Part shown: piece by piece, positions 3,573 to 19,555 of the stretch
Layout of the letters: each line of letters begins with the position of its first letter
Numbering within the stretch: position 1 is the first letter of the stretch
Origin: Thioalkalivibrio sp. AKL19
Lineage (GTDB): Bacteria > Pseudomonadota > Gammaproteobacteria > Ectothiorhodospirales > Ectothiorhodospiraceae
Assembly (NCBI RefSeq): GCF_000420165.1
Contig: NZ_ATUK01000002.1
Location: 1-64,000, forward strand
DNA: 64,000 bases
Reading direction: 5' to 3'
Position numbers and translations under genes: made by a program
The notes under the pieces: model-generated
Seen by the model: only the letters and a program-made list of their open reading frames with translations
Databases searched by the model: none
What the model was told of the DNA's origin: nothing

Positions 3573-5869
3573 CGGCGGTCCTCCGCGCGGAAACGCAGCA
3601 TCGCGTACACCCCGATCGCCGCCAGCGCGAGCACGAAGATCTCGCCCAGGGTATCCAGCGCGCGGAAGTCCACCAGCACCACGTTGACGATATTGCGGCC
3701 ATAACCGGAGGGCACCGACTCGTCGATGAAGTACTGCGAGATCGAGGGGAACAAGCGCGCATCCAGAGTGCTCAGGATCAGCAGTGTGATCATCCCGCCC
3801 ATCACCAGCGCGATACCGGCATCGCGCACGCGCAGCGCCTTGGATGACAGGTTCAGGAAGCCCGGCAGGCGGAACAGCACCAGCACCAACAGGATCACGG
3901 TCAGGGTCTCGACCAGCACCTGGGTAATGCCGACATCGGCGGCGCTGTAGAGCACGTAGACCAGCGCCACGGTAAAGCCCATTGAACCGAGGGCCACCAC
4001 CGCCCCCAGGCGCGAGCGGGTCAGCACCGCGAACAGCATGGAGGCGACCAGGATCGCCAGGATCGCGATCTCGTGGATCTGCAGCGCGGCCCAGTCGACC
4101 TGCCCGACACCCACGTCGAACAACTGCGCCGTCACGCCGACCAGGCCCGCGGTCATCGCGACGATCACGATCACGTAGTAGCGCAGGTAGCCGTTCTGCA
4201 ACACGCGAGTCTGCCATTCGGACAGTGCCACCAGGCCGTCCATCATCTTGAAGTAGCCCTTCTCCGGCCCGTATTCGGCGGCGCGGTCCACCCATGCCAG
4301 CGCGCGGCGCGCCTGTTCCCAGCGCCAGTACAGGACACCACCGGCCACCAGGCTGAACGCGGAGATCGCCAGCGGCCAGTTAAGCCCGTGCCACAACGCC
4401 AGATAGCCGTCCACCGGCGTGCCCTGCACACTGGCCGCCGCGGCGTTGATCAGGCCCTCGTCCGCCAACCCCGGCCCGAGACCGAAGATCAGGCCCAGGC
4501 TCGCGAGCACCGCCGGACCGGCGAGCATCGCCACCGGGGCGTCATGGTGCGGCGTCTTCGGCGTATCCACCTTCGCCCCAAACCAGGGGCGGATACCGAC
4601 GATCGCGGCCACCGCGACCCCGAGGATCGCGGTCAGCACCGCCAGCAGGGCGAGGATGCCGCCCAGGCTTGGTGCGTCAAGCACCGCCTCCAGCATCAGT
4701 TCCTTCGCAACAAAACCGAACAACGGGATGACCCCGCCCAGCGACAGTGCCGCGAGGATCGCGAACGCCGCCGTCACCGGGAGCGCGCTGCGCAGCCCCC
4801 CGGTCTGCAGGAAGTCCTTCGCCCCGGCCTCGTGGTCGAGGATGCCGGCGACCAGGAACAGCGCGCCCTTGTACAGCGAATGCGCCAGGAGGAAGGCCAT
4901 CGCCGCCATCAATGCGGTCTCGGTGCCGATCCCGATCAGCATGGTCAGCGTGCCCAGTGCCATCACGGTGGAGTACGCCAGCACCTTCTTCACGCCGGTC
5001 GAGCGGAAGGCCAGGAAGACCCCGGTGAACATGGTCACCGCGCCGAACAGTGCCAGCGTGGTGAACCAGATATCGGTCCCCCCCAGCGAGGGATTCAGGC
5101 GCGCCATCAGGTACACGCCTGCTTTCACCATGGTGGCCGAGTGGAGGTAGGCGGAGACCGGCGTCGGCGCGGCCATCGCGCGCGGCAGCCAGAAGTGGAA
5201 CGGGACCTGGGCCGACTTGGTGAATGCCCCGAGCAGAATCAGGATCAGCAATGGCAGGTAAAGCGCGTGCTCGCGCACCACGTCGCCATTGTTGAGGATC
5301 TCGGACAGCTCCCAGGAACCACCGGCCATCGCCAGCATGATGATCCCGGCCAGCAGCGCCAGGCCGCCGCCCACGGTGACGAACAGGCCCTGCAACGCGT
5401 ATTTCCGCGCGTCCAAGTTCTCGTGGTTGTAGCCGATCAGCAGGTAGGACGTGATGCTGGTCAGCTCCCAGAACACGAACATCGCGACCAGGTTGTCCGC
5501 CAGCACCAGCCCCAGCATGGAGCCCATGAAGGCGAGGATGATCACGTAGAAACGCCCGAGGTCGCGATCGCCCTCGAGGTAGCGCCCGGCATAGGTGACG
5601 ATGAAGAAGCCGATGCCCGAGATCAGCAGCGCGAACAGCAGCGAAAGGCCATCCACCAGGAACGAGAGCTGGATATCCAGCCCGGGCAGCCACGGCCAGG
5701 CCAGCACGATGGACTCGCCGCTGGAGACCGCCGGCAGGAAGCTGAGGAAATAGACGAACAGCGCCGCCGGCAGCAGACCCAGCACCCAGCCACTGGTACG
5801 GCCGCTCAGGCGGTGGACCGCGGGGGCAAACGCCGCGACCAGGAACGTTGACAGAATCGCGTAGAGCAT
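3569..5869 (-). CDS. mrpA: Na+/H+ antiporter subunit MrpA/MnhA
   Basis: This 766-residue protein is the large antiporter subunit. Residues 1 to about 500 form a NuoL-like proton-channel module with the segments [16 protein letters not shown] and [18 protein letters not shown] (conserved Glu and Lys). Residues of about 580-766 are the fused MrpB-like module, including the segment [16 protein letters not shown]. It is the first gene of mrpABCDEFG. The length is close to the usual 770-800 residues. The complex exports Na+ in exchange for protons, a central function for life at high pH and salt. About 200 bases upstream to the next gene hold no clear promoter match. Confidence 0.96.
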
Positions 5870-13476: not shown

Positions 13477-14757
13477 ATGAAGCTCCTGTGCGTGGGCGAC
13501 ATCCATCTGGGCCGACAGCCGTCGCGCATCCCGCCCGCGGTGGACGAGGCGCTCGGCATCGTAAACCTCGGCCCGGCCGCTGCGTGGCGTCGCAGTGTCG
13601 ACTACGCCGTGGAACAGGGCATCGACGCGGTGCTGCTGGCCGGCGACGTAGTCGAACAGGAGGACGACTTCTACGAGGCCTACCGTGACCTGAGGGCGGG
13701 CGTCGAGCGCCTGACCGAGGCGGGCATCCGGGTACTCGGCGTCGCCGGCAACCATGACGTCCAGGTCCTGCCACGGCTGGCCGAATCCCTGCCGGCCTTC
13801 GAGCTGCTGGGGGCCGGCGGGCAGTGGGAAACCCGCGAGCTGCGCGGCCATGATGATCAGCGTCTACGGATTGCGGGCTGGTCGTTCCCCGAAGCGCGCG
13901 TAACCACCAATCCGCTGGAAGGCGATTTCCCCGCCCCCACAGACTGCCCCACCGTCGGGCTGCTGCACTGTGATCGTGACCAGTCCCGCAGCCCGCACGC
14001 CCCCGTACGCAGCAGCGATCTGGACGCCGCCCCGGTCGAGGCCTGGCTGCTGGGCCATATCCACCGCCCCGATCCACTCGCCGCGCCCCGGCCGATGGGC
14101 TATCTGGGCTCCCTGAGCGGCATGGATCCGGGCGAGCCCGGCCGCCATGGCCCCTGGTGTCTCGAGATCACCCCGGGCGGCGACCTCGCGATCGAGCAGA
14201 TTCCATTGGCACCGCTGTACTGGCATACCCTCGAGATCGCCGTGGATGGCCTGCAGCAAGCGGCCGATATCCACCGGCGGGTGACCGAGGCCCTGGAAGC
14301 CCTCCATACCGAGCTGGAGACCTGGAGCCACAGACCTGCGGCCGTCGGCTGCCGCCTGCGCTTTACCGGGCGCAGCGATCAGCGCCACGCGCTGGAGCGC
14401 AGCCTGCACGCCGACGACCCGCGCACCACACCGCAGGACCTCGGCGGCCGTTTGTATTTCGTCCACGACTGGCGCCTGGAGGCCCTGCCCGCCCTGGATC
14501 TGGCGGAACTCGCCGCGGGCAGCGATCCCGCCGCATTGCTGGCCCGCAAGCTGCAGTTGCTGCAAGGCCCGGATAACGCGGCCCGCAGCGAACTCCTGGA
14601 GAAGGCCCGCGACCCGCTCGCCCAAGTGATTCATGACCCGCGCTATCGCGCCCTCGCCCCCGACGTCCCGGATGACGAGGCGATCGCCCGCCACCTGGAA
14701 GCGGCCGCCCTGCACGCCCTTGACCGGCTGCTGCTCCAGCGCGAGAGCGAAGCGTGA
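13477..14757 (+). CDS. SbcD/Mre11-like DNA repair exonuclease (YhaO-like)
   Basis: This 426-residue protein has a calcineurin-like metallophosphoesterase domain with all Mre11 motifs: GDIHLG (Asp8, His10), LLAGDVV (Asp57), VAGNHD (Asn92, His93), LLHCD and LLGHIHRP. It would provide the Mn-dependent nuclease of an Mre11-Rad50-type complex. The partner ATPase gene starts 7 bases downstream. Of the two known bacterial versions, SbcCD and YhaON, the partner's hydrophobic insert favours the YhaO type. Confidence 0.88.
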   Translation: MKLLCVGDIHLGRQPSRIPPAVDEALGIVNLGPAAAWRRSVDYAVEQGIDAVLLAGDVVEQEDDFYEAYRDLRAGVERLTEAGIRVLGVAGNHDVQVLPRLAESLPAFELLGAGGQWETRELRGHDDQRLRIAGWSFPEARVTTNPLEGDFPAPTDCPTVGLLHCDRDQSRSPHAPVRSSDLDAAPVEAWLLGHIHRPDPLAAPRPMGYLGSLSGMDPGEPGRHGPWCLEITPGGDLAIEQIPLAPLYWHTLEIAVDGLQQAADIHRRVTEALEALHTELETWSHRPAAVGCRLRFTGRSDQRHALERSLHADDPRTTPQDLGGRLYFVHDWRLEALPALDLAELAAGSDPAALLARKLQLLQGPDNAARSELLEKARDPLAQVIHDPRYRALAPDVPDDEAIARHLEAAALHALDRLLLQRESEA

Positions 14758-14764
14758 GGGCCGC

Positions 14765-17700
14765 ATGAGACTGGACTCACTGGATATCGTCCGTCTGCCG
14801 GGCATCCATCCGGGGTTCCGCCTGGACGCCCTGGGGCCGGGCGTGAACGTGGCCATCGGGCCCAACGCGTCCGGAAAATCGAGCCTGGTGCGCGCCTTGC
14901 GAGCCGCCCTGTATACCCAGGAACTGCGCCAGACCGGAGTCCACATCGAGGCGACCTTCGTCGATGCCCAGGGCCCGTTACAGGCCCATCGGCTGGGGAC
15001 CGACTTGTCCTGGTCCCGCAACGGCGAACGCGTCGAAGCGCCCCCGCTGCCGGATCATCGCTTCATCGACTGCTACACCCTGCGCATCGAGGACCTGCTG
15101 AACGCCGACCACGGCACCGAGCAGGAGATCGGCCTGCGTCTGGCCCGCGAACTGGCCGGCGGCTACGACCTGCCCGCCCTGCGCGACGATCCCGCACTGA
15201 GCCTGAAGACGACCCATGCCCGCAGCGAGTCTCAGGCGCTGACGGCCACGGAACAGGAACTGCGCGAGCGCCGTCAGCAGCAACGCGGCCTGCAGCACGA
15301 CGAACAGCGCCTGACCGACCTGAAAGCGCAACGCCAGCAGACCCAGCGCGCCGCCCACGAGGCCGATCAGTACGCACGCGCCCTGGACCTGCTGGGGGCC
15401 CGCCGCGAACACCGGGATCTGGAGACCCGGATGGCGGCCTTGCCTCCCGGCCTGGAGGCACTCCGTGGCGACGAACTGCAACGCCTCGCCCCGCTCCAGG
15501 ACGAGTTGCGGCGCCTGGAACACGAACAACAACAGGCCCGTGAACGCCTGGAGGACGCCCGTCAGCGCCGCGAGGAAGCTGGCCTGGCGGACTCCGAGCT
15601 GCATACGGATTCCGTGGACGATCAACGCCCCGTGGCACGCAGGCTGCTGGAGCTGGAGAGGGGGCTGGAACAGGCGACGAGCGAGCTGCACGCGGCGCAG
15701 GCAACACTGCGCCAGGCAACCGAAGAACTGGGGGGCACGCCAGAGGCGGCTCCAGCCCTGGACCCCGCCACGCTCCACGGGGTGGAACAGTCCCTGGAGA
15801 CCCTGCGCGGGCTGCAGGCCGGCATCACGCAACGGGAAGACGAACTCGCCTCCCTGCCTCCGACCGAGGACGCCCTGCCCACCCCCGACACACTGCGCCG
15901 CGGCCGCGACGAGCTGCTGCACTGGCTGGGGTCTCCGCTCCCCGCCCCCTGGACCGGCCTGCGCCGGTTCGCCGCCGGGATCGCCCTGCTCGCGGCGAGC
16001 GGCGCCATTGGCACCGCGGCGGTGCTGGTACACCCCGCCTTCGCCGTACTCGCGCTCCCGGTCGCCTGGGGCGCCTACATCGCCGCTCGTCCGGCGACCG
16101 ACCGCATACCCCGCGAGGCGGCCAAGGCACGCTTCCGCGATACCGGTCTGGAGCCGCCCACGGACTGGGAGACCGACGCGGTCCGCGAGCGCCTGGCCCA
16201 CCTGGAGCGCGACCTGGAAGCTGCGGAGGCCGCGCGACGAACGGCGGAGCGCCGCGCTCGACTCGGACGCGAACTGCAAGAGCGGCGCGCCGCCCGCGAC
16301 CGGGAAGAGGCGCGCCTGAGTGACATTGCCAAGCAGGTCGGCTTCGACCCCGCCTGCATGGATGCCTCGCTGCAACGCTGGATCCACCTGACCGCGAACC
16401 ATGACCGGGCCCGCCAGGCCGTGAACACCGCACGGGCAGAGCAGGAACGCCTGACAGCCGAGCTGGAGGCGACCCGGGCACCCGTCATGGCCTTTCTCGC
16501 CCGGTATGCCGCGGCCCCTCCGGACCCCGCCCCTTCGGCGGATACCCTGGCTCAGCGCCTGGACCGTCTCGCCGCCCGGCTGCAGACGCGGGACACCGCG
16601 CAGCGCGAGGAAAAGGCCGCCCAGCGCGAACTCGAACGCCTGCAAGCGGACACGAACCGCACGCGAGAGCAGATCGCCGCGCTGTACGCAGCGGCCGGCC
16701 TGGAGAACGACGATGAATCGACCCTGCGCGAGAGGCTGCGCCTATGGCCCGACTGGCAGGAACTGAGCGTGCAACTGGGTAATGTGCGCGAACGCGAGCG
16801 CGAACGCCGCCGCCACCTCGAGGACCGCCCGGACTTGCTGGAGGCGGTCGAGGCCGATGCCACGGAGCCCCTGGAATCGCAACTTCAGACCCTGCGCGAC
16901 CAGGCGGCGGACCGCGACCGACTGAGCGAGGAGATCGCCCGCATCGAAGCGGCCATCGACCGCGCCGGCCATGAACGCCAGCTGGAATCCGCCCGCGCCC
17001 GCCGCGAACTCGCCCGCGACGCCCTGAGCGAGCGCCTCGACCAGGCCCTGTTTGCCACGGCCGGAAACTTTCTGCTGGACCAGGTCGAGATGGAACACGA
17101 ACAGGCGGTGCAGCCTGCGGCCCTGCGTCAGGCCCGGGAGTGGTTCCAGCGCTTCACTCGCCATCAATACGAACTTCAGTTCTCGCCCCATGCCACGGCC
17201 CGATTCAGCGCCCGCGAGACCGCCAGCGGGGCGACCCGCGCGCTCACCGAACTCTCCAGCGGGACGCGGATGCAGCTTCTGCTCGCCGTACGCATCGCCT
17301 TTGCGCTGGAGGCCGAGCGCGGCCGCAGCGCGCTCCCGCTCATCCTCGACGAGGCGCTGGGCACGGCGGACCCGGACCGCTTCCGGGCGGTGGCCGAAAG
17401 CCTGCAGGCACTGGCCCACGAGGCCGGCCGACAGGTCTTCTACCTGACCGCCCAGCCCGAAGATGCCCGTTACTGGCAGGCACAGGACTCCAGCGTCGAG
17501 ATCATCGACCTGGCCGCACGCCGCTGGGGACAGCAAACGCTGGGGAGCCCCGAACAGCTGACCCTTCCGGAAACCGAACCGGTACCCGCCCCCGGCAACG
17601 ATTCGCCCGAGGACTACGCCCAGCGGATCGGAGGCGTCCCGCTGATCGCCCCCTGGCAGGACCCGGCCGGCATCCATCTGTTTCACCTGCTGCGCGACCG

Positions 17701-18217
17701 TCTGGAGCTGTTGCAGCGCCTGCTGGAGCTGAGAGTGGATCGCCTGGGCGCGCTGGAGTCCCTGCTGCAAGGCCCCGCCGACTCCCTGCTGGACCACGCG
17801 GAACGCCAGATGCTTCAGGCCCGTAGCGAGGCCGCCCGCGCCTGGATTCGCGCCTGGCGCCAGGGTCGCGGCCGCCCGGTGGACCGCGCGGCCCTGGAGG
17901 CCTCCGAGGCGGTCAGTGCGACCTTCATCGACGCCGTCTCCGACCTGGCGAGCCAGCTGAATGGCGACGGCCAACAGCTCCTTGGCGAACTGGAGAACGG
18001 TACGGTCAAGCGCTTCCAGACCAGCGCCCGCGAACGGCTGTCCGAATGGCTCACCGACAACGGCTATATCGACCCGAACCCGGTCTTGACCGAAACCGAA
18101 CTCGAACACCGCGCCATCGCGACCCTGAAACCACACCACACCACACCGGAGCGGGCCGTCACCGAAGGCCAGGCCCTGGCCCGCGCCCTGCAAGCCGGCT
18201 TGCACCCGCCCGCCTGA
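14765..18217 (+). CDS. SMC/Rad50-like ATPase with hydrophobic insert (YhaN-like)
   Basis: This 1150-residue protein has a Walker A GPNASGKSS at residues 32-40, extended Gln/Arg/Glu-rich coiled coil, a hydrophobic stretch at about 401-440 that could form two membrane helices, more coiled coil, an ABC signature LSSGT at about 830, and Walker B LPLILDEALG at about 858. The hydrophobic hairpin replaces the CxxC zinc hook of SbcC, as in YhaN. An additional C-terminal region of about 220 residues (930-1150) has no motif I recognise. It presumably complexes with the upstream nuclease. The start at 14765 follows the upstream stop by 7 bases. Confidence 0.82.
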   Translation: MRLDSLDIVRLPGIHPGFRLDALGPGVNVAIGPNASGKSSLVRALRAALYTQELRQTGVHIEATFVDAQGPLQAHRLGTDLSWSRNGERVEAPPLPDHRFIDCYTLRIEDLLNADHGTEQEIGLRLARELAGGYDLPALRDDPALSLKTTHARSESQALTATEQELRERRQQQRGLQHDEQRLTDLKAQRQQTQRAAHEADQYARALDLLGARREHRDLETRMAALPPGLEALRGDELQRLAPLQDELRRLEHEQQQARERLEDARQRREEAGLADSELHTDSVDDQRPVARRLLELERGLEQATSELHAAQATLRQATEELGGTPEAAPALDPATLHGVEQSLETLRGLQAGITQREDELASLPPTEDALPTPDTLRRGRDELLHWLGSPLPAPWTGLRRFAAGIALLAASGAIGTAAVLVHPAFAVLALPVAWGAYIAARPATDRIPREAAKARFRDTGLEPPTDWETDAVRERLAHLERDLEAAEAARRTAERRARLGRELQERRAARDREEARLSDIAKQVGFDPACMDASLQRWIHLTANHDRARQAVNTARAEQERLTAELEATRAPVMAFLARYAAAPPDPAPSADTLAQRLDRLAARLQTRDTAQREEKAAQRELERLQADTNRTREQIAALYAAAGLENDDESTLRERLRLWPDWQELSVQLGNVRERERERRRHLEDRPDLLEAVEADATEPLESQLQTLRDQAADRDRLSEEIARIEAAIDRAGHERQLESARARRELARDALSERLDQALFATAGNFLLDQVEMEHEQAVQPAALRQAREWFQRFTRHQYELQFSPHATARFSARETASGATRALTELSSGTRMQLLLAVRIAFALEAERGRSALPLILDEALGTADPDRFRAVAESLQALAHEAGRQVFYLTAQPEDARYWQAQDSSVEIIDLAARRWGQQTLGSPEQLTLPETEPVPAPGNDSPEDYAQRIGGVPLIAPWQDPAGIHLFHLLRDRLELLQRLLELRVDRLGALESLLQGPADSLLDHAERQMLQARSEAARAWIRAWRQGRGRPVDRAALEASEAVSATFIDAVSDLASQLNGDGQQLLGELENGTVKRFQTSARERLSEWLTDNGYIDPNPVLTETELEHRAIATLKPHHTTPERAVTEGQALARALQAGLHPPA

Positions 18218-18362
18218 ACGGCACGGAGACGAAAACTCCGGGCGCCGCCTTGCGCTGCTGCGTGCGCTCCCCCCTGCGGCGATGTTTCGGTGCTATTGTG
18301 GAGAGACAACGCTTCGTGACCCCGCCTCGCTGGCGACACCCCGATGGAGACCCTGCTGCCCT

Positions 18363-18518
18363 ATGGCCAAACCGAACTACCAATACGAAAAGCGCCAGCG
18401 CGAGCTGAAGAAAGCCGCCAAGCAGGAAGAAAAACGCCAGCAGAAACGGGCACGCAATCAGTCGGATGACCCGTCCGGCGCCCCAGAGGACCCACCCCAT
18501 GAAGACCATGGATCGTAA
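18363..18518 (+). CDS. Small basic protein, 51 residues
   Basis: The protein starts MAKPNYQYEKRQREL and continues with Lys/Arg/Gln-rich sequence, ending in an acidic Asp/Pro/Glu tail. Small proteins beginning MAKPNY(Q)(F/Y)EKRQREL are widespread in gammaproteobacteria and usually left as hypothetical; this is from memory of the family. The highly charged sequence suggests an RNA- or ribosome-associated peptide, but nothing is known. The ORF overlaps the next small ORF by 20 bases. Confidence 0.72.
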   Translation: MAKPNYQYEKRQRELKKAAKQEEKRQQKRARNQSDDPSGAPEDPPHEDHGS

Positions 18519-18609
18519 GCGCGACAGCAAGAAGAAGGCCGAAAAGACACTGATGGAGAAACGCGCCGCCAAGGCGGAGAAGCGCAAGCCCAAGGTCTTT
18601 CTGCCCTGA
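18499..18609 (+). CDS. Tiny lysine-rich ORF, 36 residues
   Basis: This ORF reads MKTMDRKRDSKKKAEKTL and continues Lys/Arg/Ala-rich, ending KPKVFLP. It starts inside the 3' end of the preceding small gene in another frame and stops 21 bases before a strong intrinsic terminator, so it would sit on the same transcript. The second Met (18508) is an alternative start. The extreme Lys content is not explained by the overlapping frame, since most of the ORF lies beyond it. No function can be assigned. Confidence 0.5.
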   Translation: MKTMDRKRDSKKKAEKTLMEKRAAKAEKRKPKVFLP

Positions 18610-18630
18610 CCCAACCATTTCGGAACGCAC

Positions 18631-18676
18631 GACGCCGGCCTCCGGGGTTCTCCCCAGGTCGGCGTCTTTCGTTTCG
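18631..18676 (+). terminator. Intrinsic terminator
   Basis: GACGCCGGCCT (18631-18641) pairs with AGGTCGGCGTC (18656-18666) with a single G-T pair, and the loop can extend with CCGGGG/CCCC. A T-rich tract TTTCGTTTCG follows directly. It would end the transcript of the two small basic ORFs before the RIO kinase gene. Confidence 0.7.
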
Positions 18677-18694
18677 CCAACCCCGTACGCGCTC

Positions 18695-19555
18695 ATGAAA
18701 ATCCCCAAGATGCTCCAGCCGCTGGTCGAAGACGGCGTCATTGATACCGTCCTCGGGCAGCTGCAAAGCGGCAAGGAGGCGAACATCTACCTCGTCCGCA
18801 GCGGGGGTGCGACACGCTGTGCCAAGGCGTACAAGGAAGCCAAGCATCGCGGCTTCCACAAACTGGCCGAGTATCAGGAAGGCCGCAAGGTCCGCGGCAG
18901 CCGCGATGCGCGGGCCATGGCCCGACGTGGGCGTCACGGCCGCGAGGTCGAGGAGACCCAGTGGAAGAACGCGGAAGTCGAGGCGCTCTACCGCCTTGCC
19001 GACGCGGGCGTTCGAGTGCCCGTCCCCTACGGCGTATTCGACCGCGTCCTGTTGATGGAACTGGTGCTGGACGCCGAAGGCAACACCGCACCCCAGCTGC
19101 ACGAAGTCGAACTGGACCTCGAGACGGCTCGCACCTGGTTCGCATTCATGATCCGCCAGATCCAGCGCATGCTGTGCGCCGGCCTGATCCATGGGGACCT
19201 GTCCGAGTACAACGTGCTGGTGGACGCGCACGGGCCCGTCATCATCGACCTCCCCCAGGCCGTCAACGCCGCCGGCAACAACAACGCATTCCGCATGCTG
19301 CAGCGGGACGTGAACAACATGCGCGCAACCTTCGGCCGCGTGGACCCCACGCTGCTGGAGACGCAGTACGCCCACGAGATGTGGGACCTGTTCGCCAACG
19401 GTGACCTGACGCCGGAAACACCCCTGACGGGGCACTTCGAGCACAGCGAAGAGACCCCCGACGTGGACGGGGTGCTCGACGAGATCGAGGATGCGCGACT
19501 GGAGCACGAGGCCTTGCTGGCCGCCCTCGACCCGACCCACCCCGACAACCAATAG
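18695..19555 (+). CDS. RIO1-family atypical serine kinase
   Basis: This 286-residue cytoplasmic protein belongs to the RIO family. The nucleotide-binding segment is SGKEANIYLVRS (about residues 25-36), the catalytic loop LIHGDLSEYNVLV contains His166, Asp168 and Asn173, and the metal-binding motif IIDLPQAV corresponds to the RIO1 IDxxQ. Bacterial RIO kinases are poorly characterised; the eukaryotic and archaeal relatives act in small ribosomal subunit maturation. An acidic C-terminal tail follows. It is preceded by small basic ORFs and a terminator, so it is likely transcribed separately. Confidence 0.88.
   Translation: MKIPKMLQPLVEDGVIDTVLGQLQSGKEANIYLVRSGGATRCAKAYKEAKHRGFHKLAEYQEGRKVRGSRDARAMARRGRHGREVEETQWKNAEVEALYRLADAGVRVPVPYGVFDRVLLMELVLDAEGNTAPQLHEVELDLETARTWFAFMIRQIQRMLCAGLIHGDLSEYNVLVDAHGPVIIDLPQAVNAAGNNNAFRMLQRDVNNMRATFGRVDPTLLETQYAHEMWDLFANGDLTPETPLTGHFEHSEETPDVDGVLDEIEDARLEHEALLAALDPTHPDNQ

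Follow-up and report, generated by a model that had tools for sequence, protein, structure and literature searches.

Two conserved families of very small proteins tend to occur with a PA4780-type RIO kinase in Thioalkalivibrio and other members of its class

RIO kinases act in the maturation of small ribosomal subunits in archaea and eukaryotes. In a 64,000-nucleotide stretch of DNA from Thioalkalivibrio sp. AKL19 (here called the window; the genome containing it is 2.88 Mb), a RIO-family kinase gene is preceded by two very short open reading frames of 51 and 36 residues, which we designate P1 and P2. An initial annotation, made from the letters of the window, had suggested that both encode basic and possibly ribosome-associated peptides. 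This raises two questions: whether the frames are genes, and whether they have anything to do with the kinase.

Organization of the locus

P1, P2, a hairpin and the kinase gene follow one another on the + strand of the window. The features of the locus are as follows:

18286-18303, + strand: TTCGGTGCTATTGTGGAG, a sequence element 5' of P1
18363-18518, + strand: P1, small-protein gene of the MAKPNY...KRQR family (51 aa; basic helix and acidic, Pro-rich tail)
18499-18609, + strand: P2, basic protein gene of the M[SA]KGxDxKKExKKKPxKTxKEKRAxKK family (36 aa; overlaps P1 by 20 bases)
18631-18674, + strand: terminator-like hairpin with the short T tract TTTCGTTT (core, 18631-18666; T tract, 18667-18674)
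18695-19555, + strand: PA4780-type RIO1-like protein kinase (NF041645, 440.7 bits; PF01163 RIO1, 134.1 bits)

The two small ORFs do overlap in different frames, as first described, and have positions 18499 to 18518 in common. The adjoining ORF, which starts at 18695, likewise proved to encode a RIO-family kinase. Its scores exceed the cut-offs of both models (350 bits for NF041645 and 22 bits for PF01163), and the match to NF041645 extends over residues 1 to 272, which makes it a member of the PA4780 family. The translation contains GKEANIY, HGDLSEYN, and IIDLPQAV, which we take to be the RIO1 P-loop, catalytic (HxDLSEYN), and metal-binding (IDxxQ) motifs. The closest named relatives among those found were Thioalkalivibrio sp. 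ALMg11 and T. versutus AL 2, with kinases 97% identical to that of the window. On the other side of P1 lie a metallophosphoesterase-like ORF (13477 to 14757; named by eye) and a large SMC/SbcC-like ATPase ORF (14633 to 18217; Pfam matches below threshold only), presumably an SbcD/SbcC- or YhaO/YhaN-like nuclease pair.

RIO1-like proteins have long been known from Pseudomonas and other bacteria (PMC1262709). Our RIO searches of the open literature, which returned mostly eukaryotic or general titles, gave no link of small partner proteins to the bacterial kinase family, and the word "PA4780" was absent from the literature searched.

P1 and P2 as protein-coding genes

Single-sequence searches found relatives of P1 and P2 both within the genus and beyond it. 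Profiles were then made from 23 of 31 P1 sequences (A3) and 24 of 32 P2 sequences (A4), with near-duplicates and the most divergent or partial sequences omitted. Among 276 sampled genomes of the class, the P1 profile matched 29 at an E value of ≤0.01, and 28 once a weak match in G025 (E value, 0.009) was dropped; the P2 family was present in 49. The window copies matched their own profiles with E values of 6.1e-20 (P1) and 1.7e-10 (P2), each being itself among the aligned sequences. The P1 copy has all of the features of its family, namely, the MAKPNYxFxKRQR start, the K/E/R helix, and the acidic, Pro-rich tail; the P2 copy conforms to the family motif but departs from it at some positions (MKTMDRKRDSKKKAEKTLMEKRA). 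G237 has two P1-family genes (L081 and L103), and G038, G111, G132, and G174 each gave two P2-family matches.

The homologues of both proteins have a fixed start and specific motifs and, by eye, are often preceded by a Shine-Dalgarno-like sequence. The conservation of MAKPNY fixes the start position of P1, and AGGA was read directly in the window 8 bases 5' of the ATG of P2. Because homologues of both exist far outside the genus, the two frames go beyond what chance would produce.

The pattern of codon changes agrees with this. Among six near species, P1 changed mostly at synonymous sites, with dN/dS of 0.05 to 0.24 in 13 of 15 pairs, zero in one, and undefined in one. Between the Thioalkalivibrio genomes G013 and G017, P1 had 7 synonymous and 2 nonsynonymous differences by codon count (7.5 and 1.5 by path averaging). 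The comparisons of these two with G042 gave 9 synonymous-codon and 6 changed-codon differences in one case and 8 and 4 in the other, located in the tail, and P1 is under weaker constraint in these comparisons. The 36-residue frame, for which codon-level conservation had been proposed as the decisive check, passed it: G013 and G017 differ by 7 synonymous and 0 nonsynonymous changes, and the family extends across the class. Comparison of P2 with G042 gave 5 synonymous and 1 nonsynonymous difference for G017 and 8 and 1 for G013, and the close relative of the window, G002, differs by 3 changes (1 synonymous and 2 nonsynonymous), which are too few for a judgment. Judged by homology and codon pattern, which rule out chance ORFs in both cases, P1 and P2 are real genes. 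Where genes overlap, as here, automatic annotation may overlook one of them.

Both ORFs had initially been described as basic. This holds for P2, with a net charge of +9.5, but in P1 it holds only for residues 1 to 33 (net charge, +7.5); the tail is acidic and Pro rich, so that the whole protein carries only about +1.7. Structure prediction with AlphaFold, using alignments of 17 sequences each (A5 for P1 and A6 for P2), gave for P1 a helix at residues 6 to 35, with a mean pLDDT of 94 for residues 11 to 20 and 88 for residues 21 to 30; confidence is good to about residue 30, and the tail is poorly defined. For P2, helices were weakly predicted at residues 4 to 12 and 18 to 29. P1 thus would be a basic helix with an acidic tail and P2 a lysine-rich, weakly structured peptide.

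Loss of P2 in close relatives

Six Thioalkalivibrio species have P1 beside the kinase gene. The reading frames of P1 and the kinase are open in all six, P1 of G022 beginning with GTG. The P2 frame is intact in G000, G002, and G009 but broken in G021, G022, and G024, all three of which keep P1 and the kinase. In G021 (strain ALE14), P2 is split by a palindromic element that is flanked by TA and whose 32-nt terminal repeats are perfect:

L040:3586-3617 and 3827-3858: arms of the palindromic element inside P2 of G021 (ALE14); element span, L040:3586-3858

In G024 (ALJ7), only short repeat ends are present (L039:3850-3877), and P2 is likewise truncated; in G022 (ALJ16), the frame has decayed. By its structure, the element in P2 of ALE14 and ALJ7 resembles a MITE. 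A search with the element end of ALE14 found no copy within the window at up to 3 mismatches. P2 is more dispensable than P1.

Sequence signals around P1 and P2

The initial annotation had read the hairpin as a terminator shared by P1 and P2. A strong hairpin is present (fold of 18620 to 18680 in the window, -37.3 kcal/mol, versus -20.9 ± 2.9 for shuffled sequences; z, -5.6), but its T tract is weak and poorly conserved, and a consensus scan gave no terminator call. In the alignment of the six species, TTTCGTTT directly follows the stem in three (the window, G009, and G021), is shortened to TTTCGTCC in G024, and is absent after the stem in G002 and G022. The folds of G022 and G024 were no better than those of shuffled sequences (z, -1.15 and -0.64, respectively). 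The hairpin arms of G002 pair perfectly, with the T tract missing, and in strain ALMg11 (L036:3926-3986) the hairpin 3' of P2 is an almost perfect palindrome of 25 pairs that lacks a T tract. The hairpin may terminate P1-P2 transcription, and as a feature it is poorly conserved. From the end of its tail to the start of the kinase gene there are 20 bases.

On the 5' side of P1, TTCGGTGCTATTGTGGAG is identical in six Thioalkalivibrio sequences in the alignment and might belong to the P1 promoter. A scan of positions 18150 to 18800 gave no sigma-70-like promoter.

Linkage of P1, P2, and the kinase gene

In three further Thioalkalivibrio genomes (G013, G017, and G042), the overlap of P1 and P2 is exactly 4 bases long (ATGA), and the kinase gene is on a contig other than that of the pair; these are drafts of 190 to 380 contigs. 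The pair of G013 and G017 has an ABC-transporter-like gene on one side and a small membrane-protein-like gene on the other (names by eye). Outside Thioalkalivibrio, P1 and P2 each stood alone, with larger ORFs on both sides, in the loci examined. Of the 16 class genomes that carry both, 15 have them on separate contigs or at least 78 kb apart.

Linkage to the kinase is similarly restricted. P1 is away from the kinase gene in 12 of 14 class genomes having both. When the flanks of 44 kinase loci (43 distinct; those of G013, G017, and G042 included) were scanned, P1 was present in one, that of G045, and P2 was found in none. G045 belongs to another genus of the family, and its P1 ends 37 bases 5' of the kinase start; P2 was not found within the 3.1 kb examined near this pair. 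A pentapeptide-like-repeat ORF (by eye) is located downstream of the pair, on the minus strand of L032.

The ATGA overlap of three species and the 20-base overlap in the lineage of the window recall translationally coupled pairs of overlapping small genes. Because of the former overlap in one lineage, and of the latter with its own AGGA in the other, we infer that translation of P2 in Thioalkalivibrio is probably coupled to that of P1. Unlike such pairs, P1 and P2 are apart in nearly all of the sampled class genomes that carry both (15 of 16), and this separation, together with the lack of a Pfam match over the cut-off, also led us to reject a toxin-antitoxin pair.

Co-occurrence of the three genes

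Among 30 Thioalkalivibrio genomes (seven of them, including G013, less than 90% complete), the set with P1 and the set with the kinase are the same 9. This count omits partial P1 matches in G044 (E value, 0.11) and in G021 at a further site (E value, 0.64). On an rpoB tree of 28 of the 30 genomes and an outgroup, the carriers form two groups, each with a support of 1.0, separated by lineages that have neither P1 nor the kinase. Two genomes without these genes, G004 and G041, fall within the second group; the pairing of G041 with G022 has a support of 0.997, and the placement of G004 is weak (0.592). On the kinase gene tree, the Thioalkalivibrio copies come together relative to those of G045 and G053, so that the distribution calls for more than one joint loss or for transfer within the genus. 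The cases of joint loss are not fully independent, because adjacent genes could go in one event; joint loss as a single deletion could have occurred in the six linked species and possibly also in the ancestor.

In the 276 class genomes, all three pairs occurred together more often than expected: P1 and the RIO kinase in 14 (4.9 expected; Fisher P = 2.5e-5), P2 and the kinase in 22 (8.5 expected; P = 3.9e-7), and P1 and P2 in 16 (5.0 expected; P = 6.2e-7). For these counts, 48 genomes had the kinase, after 11 of 59 were left out as below the family cut-off. Odds ratios adjusted for genome size (274 of the 276 genomes) were 4.8, 5.1, and 7.1, respectively. In the 150 genomes whose rpoB places were listed, and which make up the class tree, the counts were 8 versus 3.7 expected for P1 and the kinase, 12 versus 6.6 for P2 and the kinase, and 10 versus 4.3 for P1 and P2. 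Tree-based simulations of independent evolution on these 150 genomes gave P values of 0.003 to 0.015 across the three pairs, and Pagel tests gave 0.034 for P1 and P2, 0.046 for P1 and the kinase, and 0.10 for P2 and the kinase. The association of P1, P2, and the kinase is real in these data, yet partial: 14 of 28 P1 genomes and 27 of 49 P2 genomes are without the kinase, and 34 of 48 kinase genomes are without P1. The tie of the small genes to the RIO kinase is supported by statistics and by the second genus (G045) in which P1 adjoins the kinase gene.

Comparison with known families

No match to P1 or P2 over the cut-off was obtained in Pfam, NCBIfam, PHROGs, or PADLOC (best E value, 0.094), and the single PHROGs match had an E value of 0.45. 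A defense or toxin-antitoxin reading was set aside, PADLOC having given no match. Profile searches of the PDB matched no chain for P1 and one chain at noise level (E = 2) for P2. Curated ribosomal-protein profiles of Pfam and NCBIfam did not match the window copies or four further sequences at E values of up to 1. A tblastn search of plasmids found nothing, a result weakened by the low-complexity filter. Six fragments of each of the two sequences were absent from 5.39 million open papers, in searches that a mention under a locus tag could escape. Going by the libraries searched, which hold no model for either, P1 and P2 are two uncatalogued families of small proteins.

Examples of bacterial ribosomal or ribosome-associated proteins that are very small and basic are bTHX and S22/Sra. 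P1 and P2 are like them in size and in Lys/Arg richness; P1 is unlike them in its acidic, Pro-rich tail, and neither P1 nor P2 matches a Pfam or NCBIfam family over the cut-off.

Possible roles of P1 and P2

The charge pattern of P1 and P2 fits the binding of RNA or another polyanion. In view of this pattern and of the association with the kinase, our leading guess is that they have an accessory part in a process linked to RIO and probably ribosomal in nature. P1 and P2, genuine and usually separate genes that form a two-gene unit in Thioalkalivibrio, would encode RNA-binding accessory peptides that act in one process with the kinase, an explanation to which we give somewhat less than an even chance. 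The process most likely would be ribosome assembly or quality control, with P1 and P2 as substrates, adaptors, or RNA chaperones, and the ribosome association suggested at the outset is plausible. A stronger version appears unlikely to us, namely, that they are dedicated partners of the PA4780-type kinase, be it as substrates, adaptors, or RNA chaperones, in an unrecognized bacterial pathway of ribosome maturation or quality control, parallel to the archaeal and eukaryotic role of RIO kinases. Two conserved families of tiny proteins with a tendency to accompany a bacterial RIO kinase offer concrete and cheaply testable candidates for its partners.

The main rival, nearly as likely as the RIO-linked accessory role, is that P1 and P2 are real but have functions unrelated to the kinase, so that the adjacency in Thioalkalivibrio is incidental and the co-occurrence reflects a common lifestyle or gene content of free-living gammaproteobacteria. 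The usual lack of linkage of P1 and P2 to each other and to the kinase, the half of P1 genomes that are without it, the transporter-like and membrane-protein-like neighbors of the pair in G013 and G017, and the marginal Pagel tests are all consistent with this. It does not account well for the identity of the P1 and RIO sets across the 30 Thioalkalivibrio genomes despite separate contigs in one group, for the second genus with P1 directly 5' of the kinase, or for an association that survives genome-size and tree-based controls.

That P1 and P2 are DNA- or nucleoid-binding peptides, or polyelectrolyte peptides induced by stress or starvation, and not ribosome factors, we consider improbable. 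Such a role would suit short, Lys/Arg-rich proteins with one charged helix or weak structure that are encoded, in the loci examined outside Thioalkalivibrio, by single genes between larger ORFs; it leaves the tie to the kinase unexplained, and nothing specific beyond this speaks against it.

Far less probable still is a role of P1 and P2 as leader ORFs whose translation controls the downstream kinase gene via the hairpin. The close spacing, the overlapping ORFs, and a strong hairpin 20 bases 5' of the kinase start would suit a leader, but we rejected this reading because both small genes are found elsewhere than next to the kinase: three Thioalkalivibrio genomes (G013, G017, and G042) and 12 of the 14 class genomes that have P1 and the kinase show P1 apart from it. 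In addition, the amino acid sequence and not merely the ORF is conserved, and the hairpin is not conserved in G022 and G024. Finally, the breakage of P2 in three of six close relatives might suggest a chance ORF, a notion with next to no probability that is already contradicted by the family in 49 of 276 class genomes and by the absence of nonsynonymous differences among the 7 between G013 and G017.

Genes neighboring P1 and P2

The neighbors of 25 P1 and 29 P2 loci were compared by all-against-all BLAST of ORFs of at least 80 residues, and no consistently common gene was found; the matches given here extend beyond the genomes of one genus, and names were assigned by eye. Beside P2 there were three loosely similar methyltransferase-like proteins (G108, G109, and G148) and two apparently GGDEF-type proteins (G074 and G190). 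Further matching pairs were G216/G273 beside P1 and G160/G244 beside P2, and an antisense ORF lies over P2 itself in four genomes. Three matches in all joined a P1-side to a P2-side neighbor: G193-G028, G042-G172, and G215-G170. The last is an apparently RadA-like gene, near P1 in G215 and near P2 in G170 (loci L100 and L058). The sharing of this neighbor is possibly a coincidence; the two RadA-like proteins are 69% identical over 229 residues.
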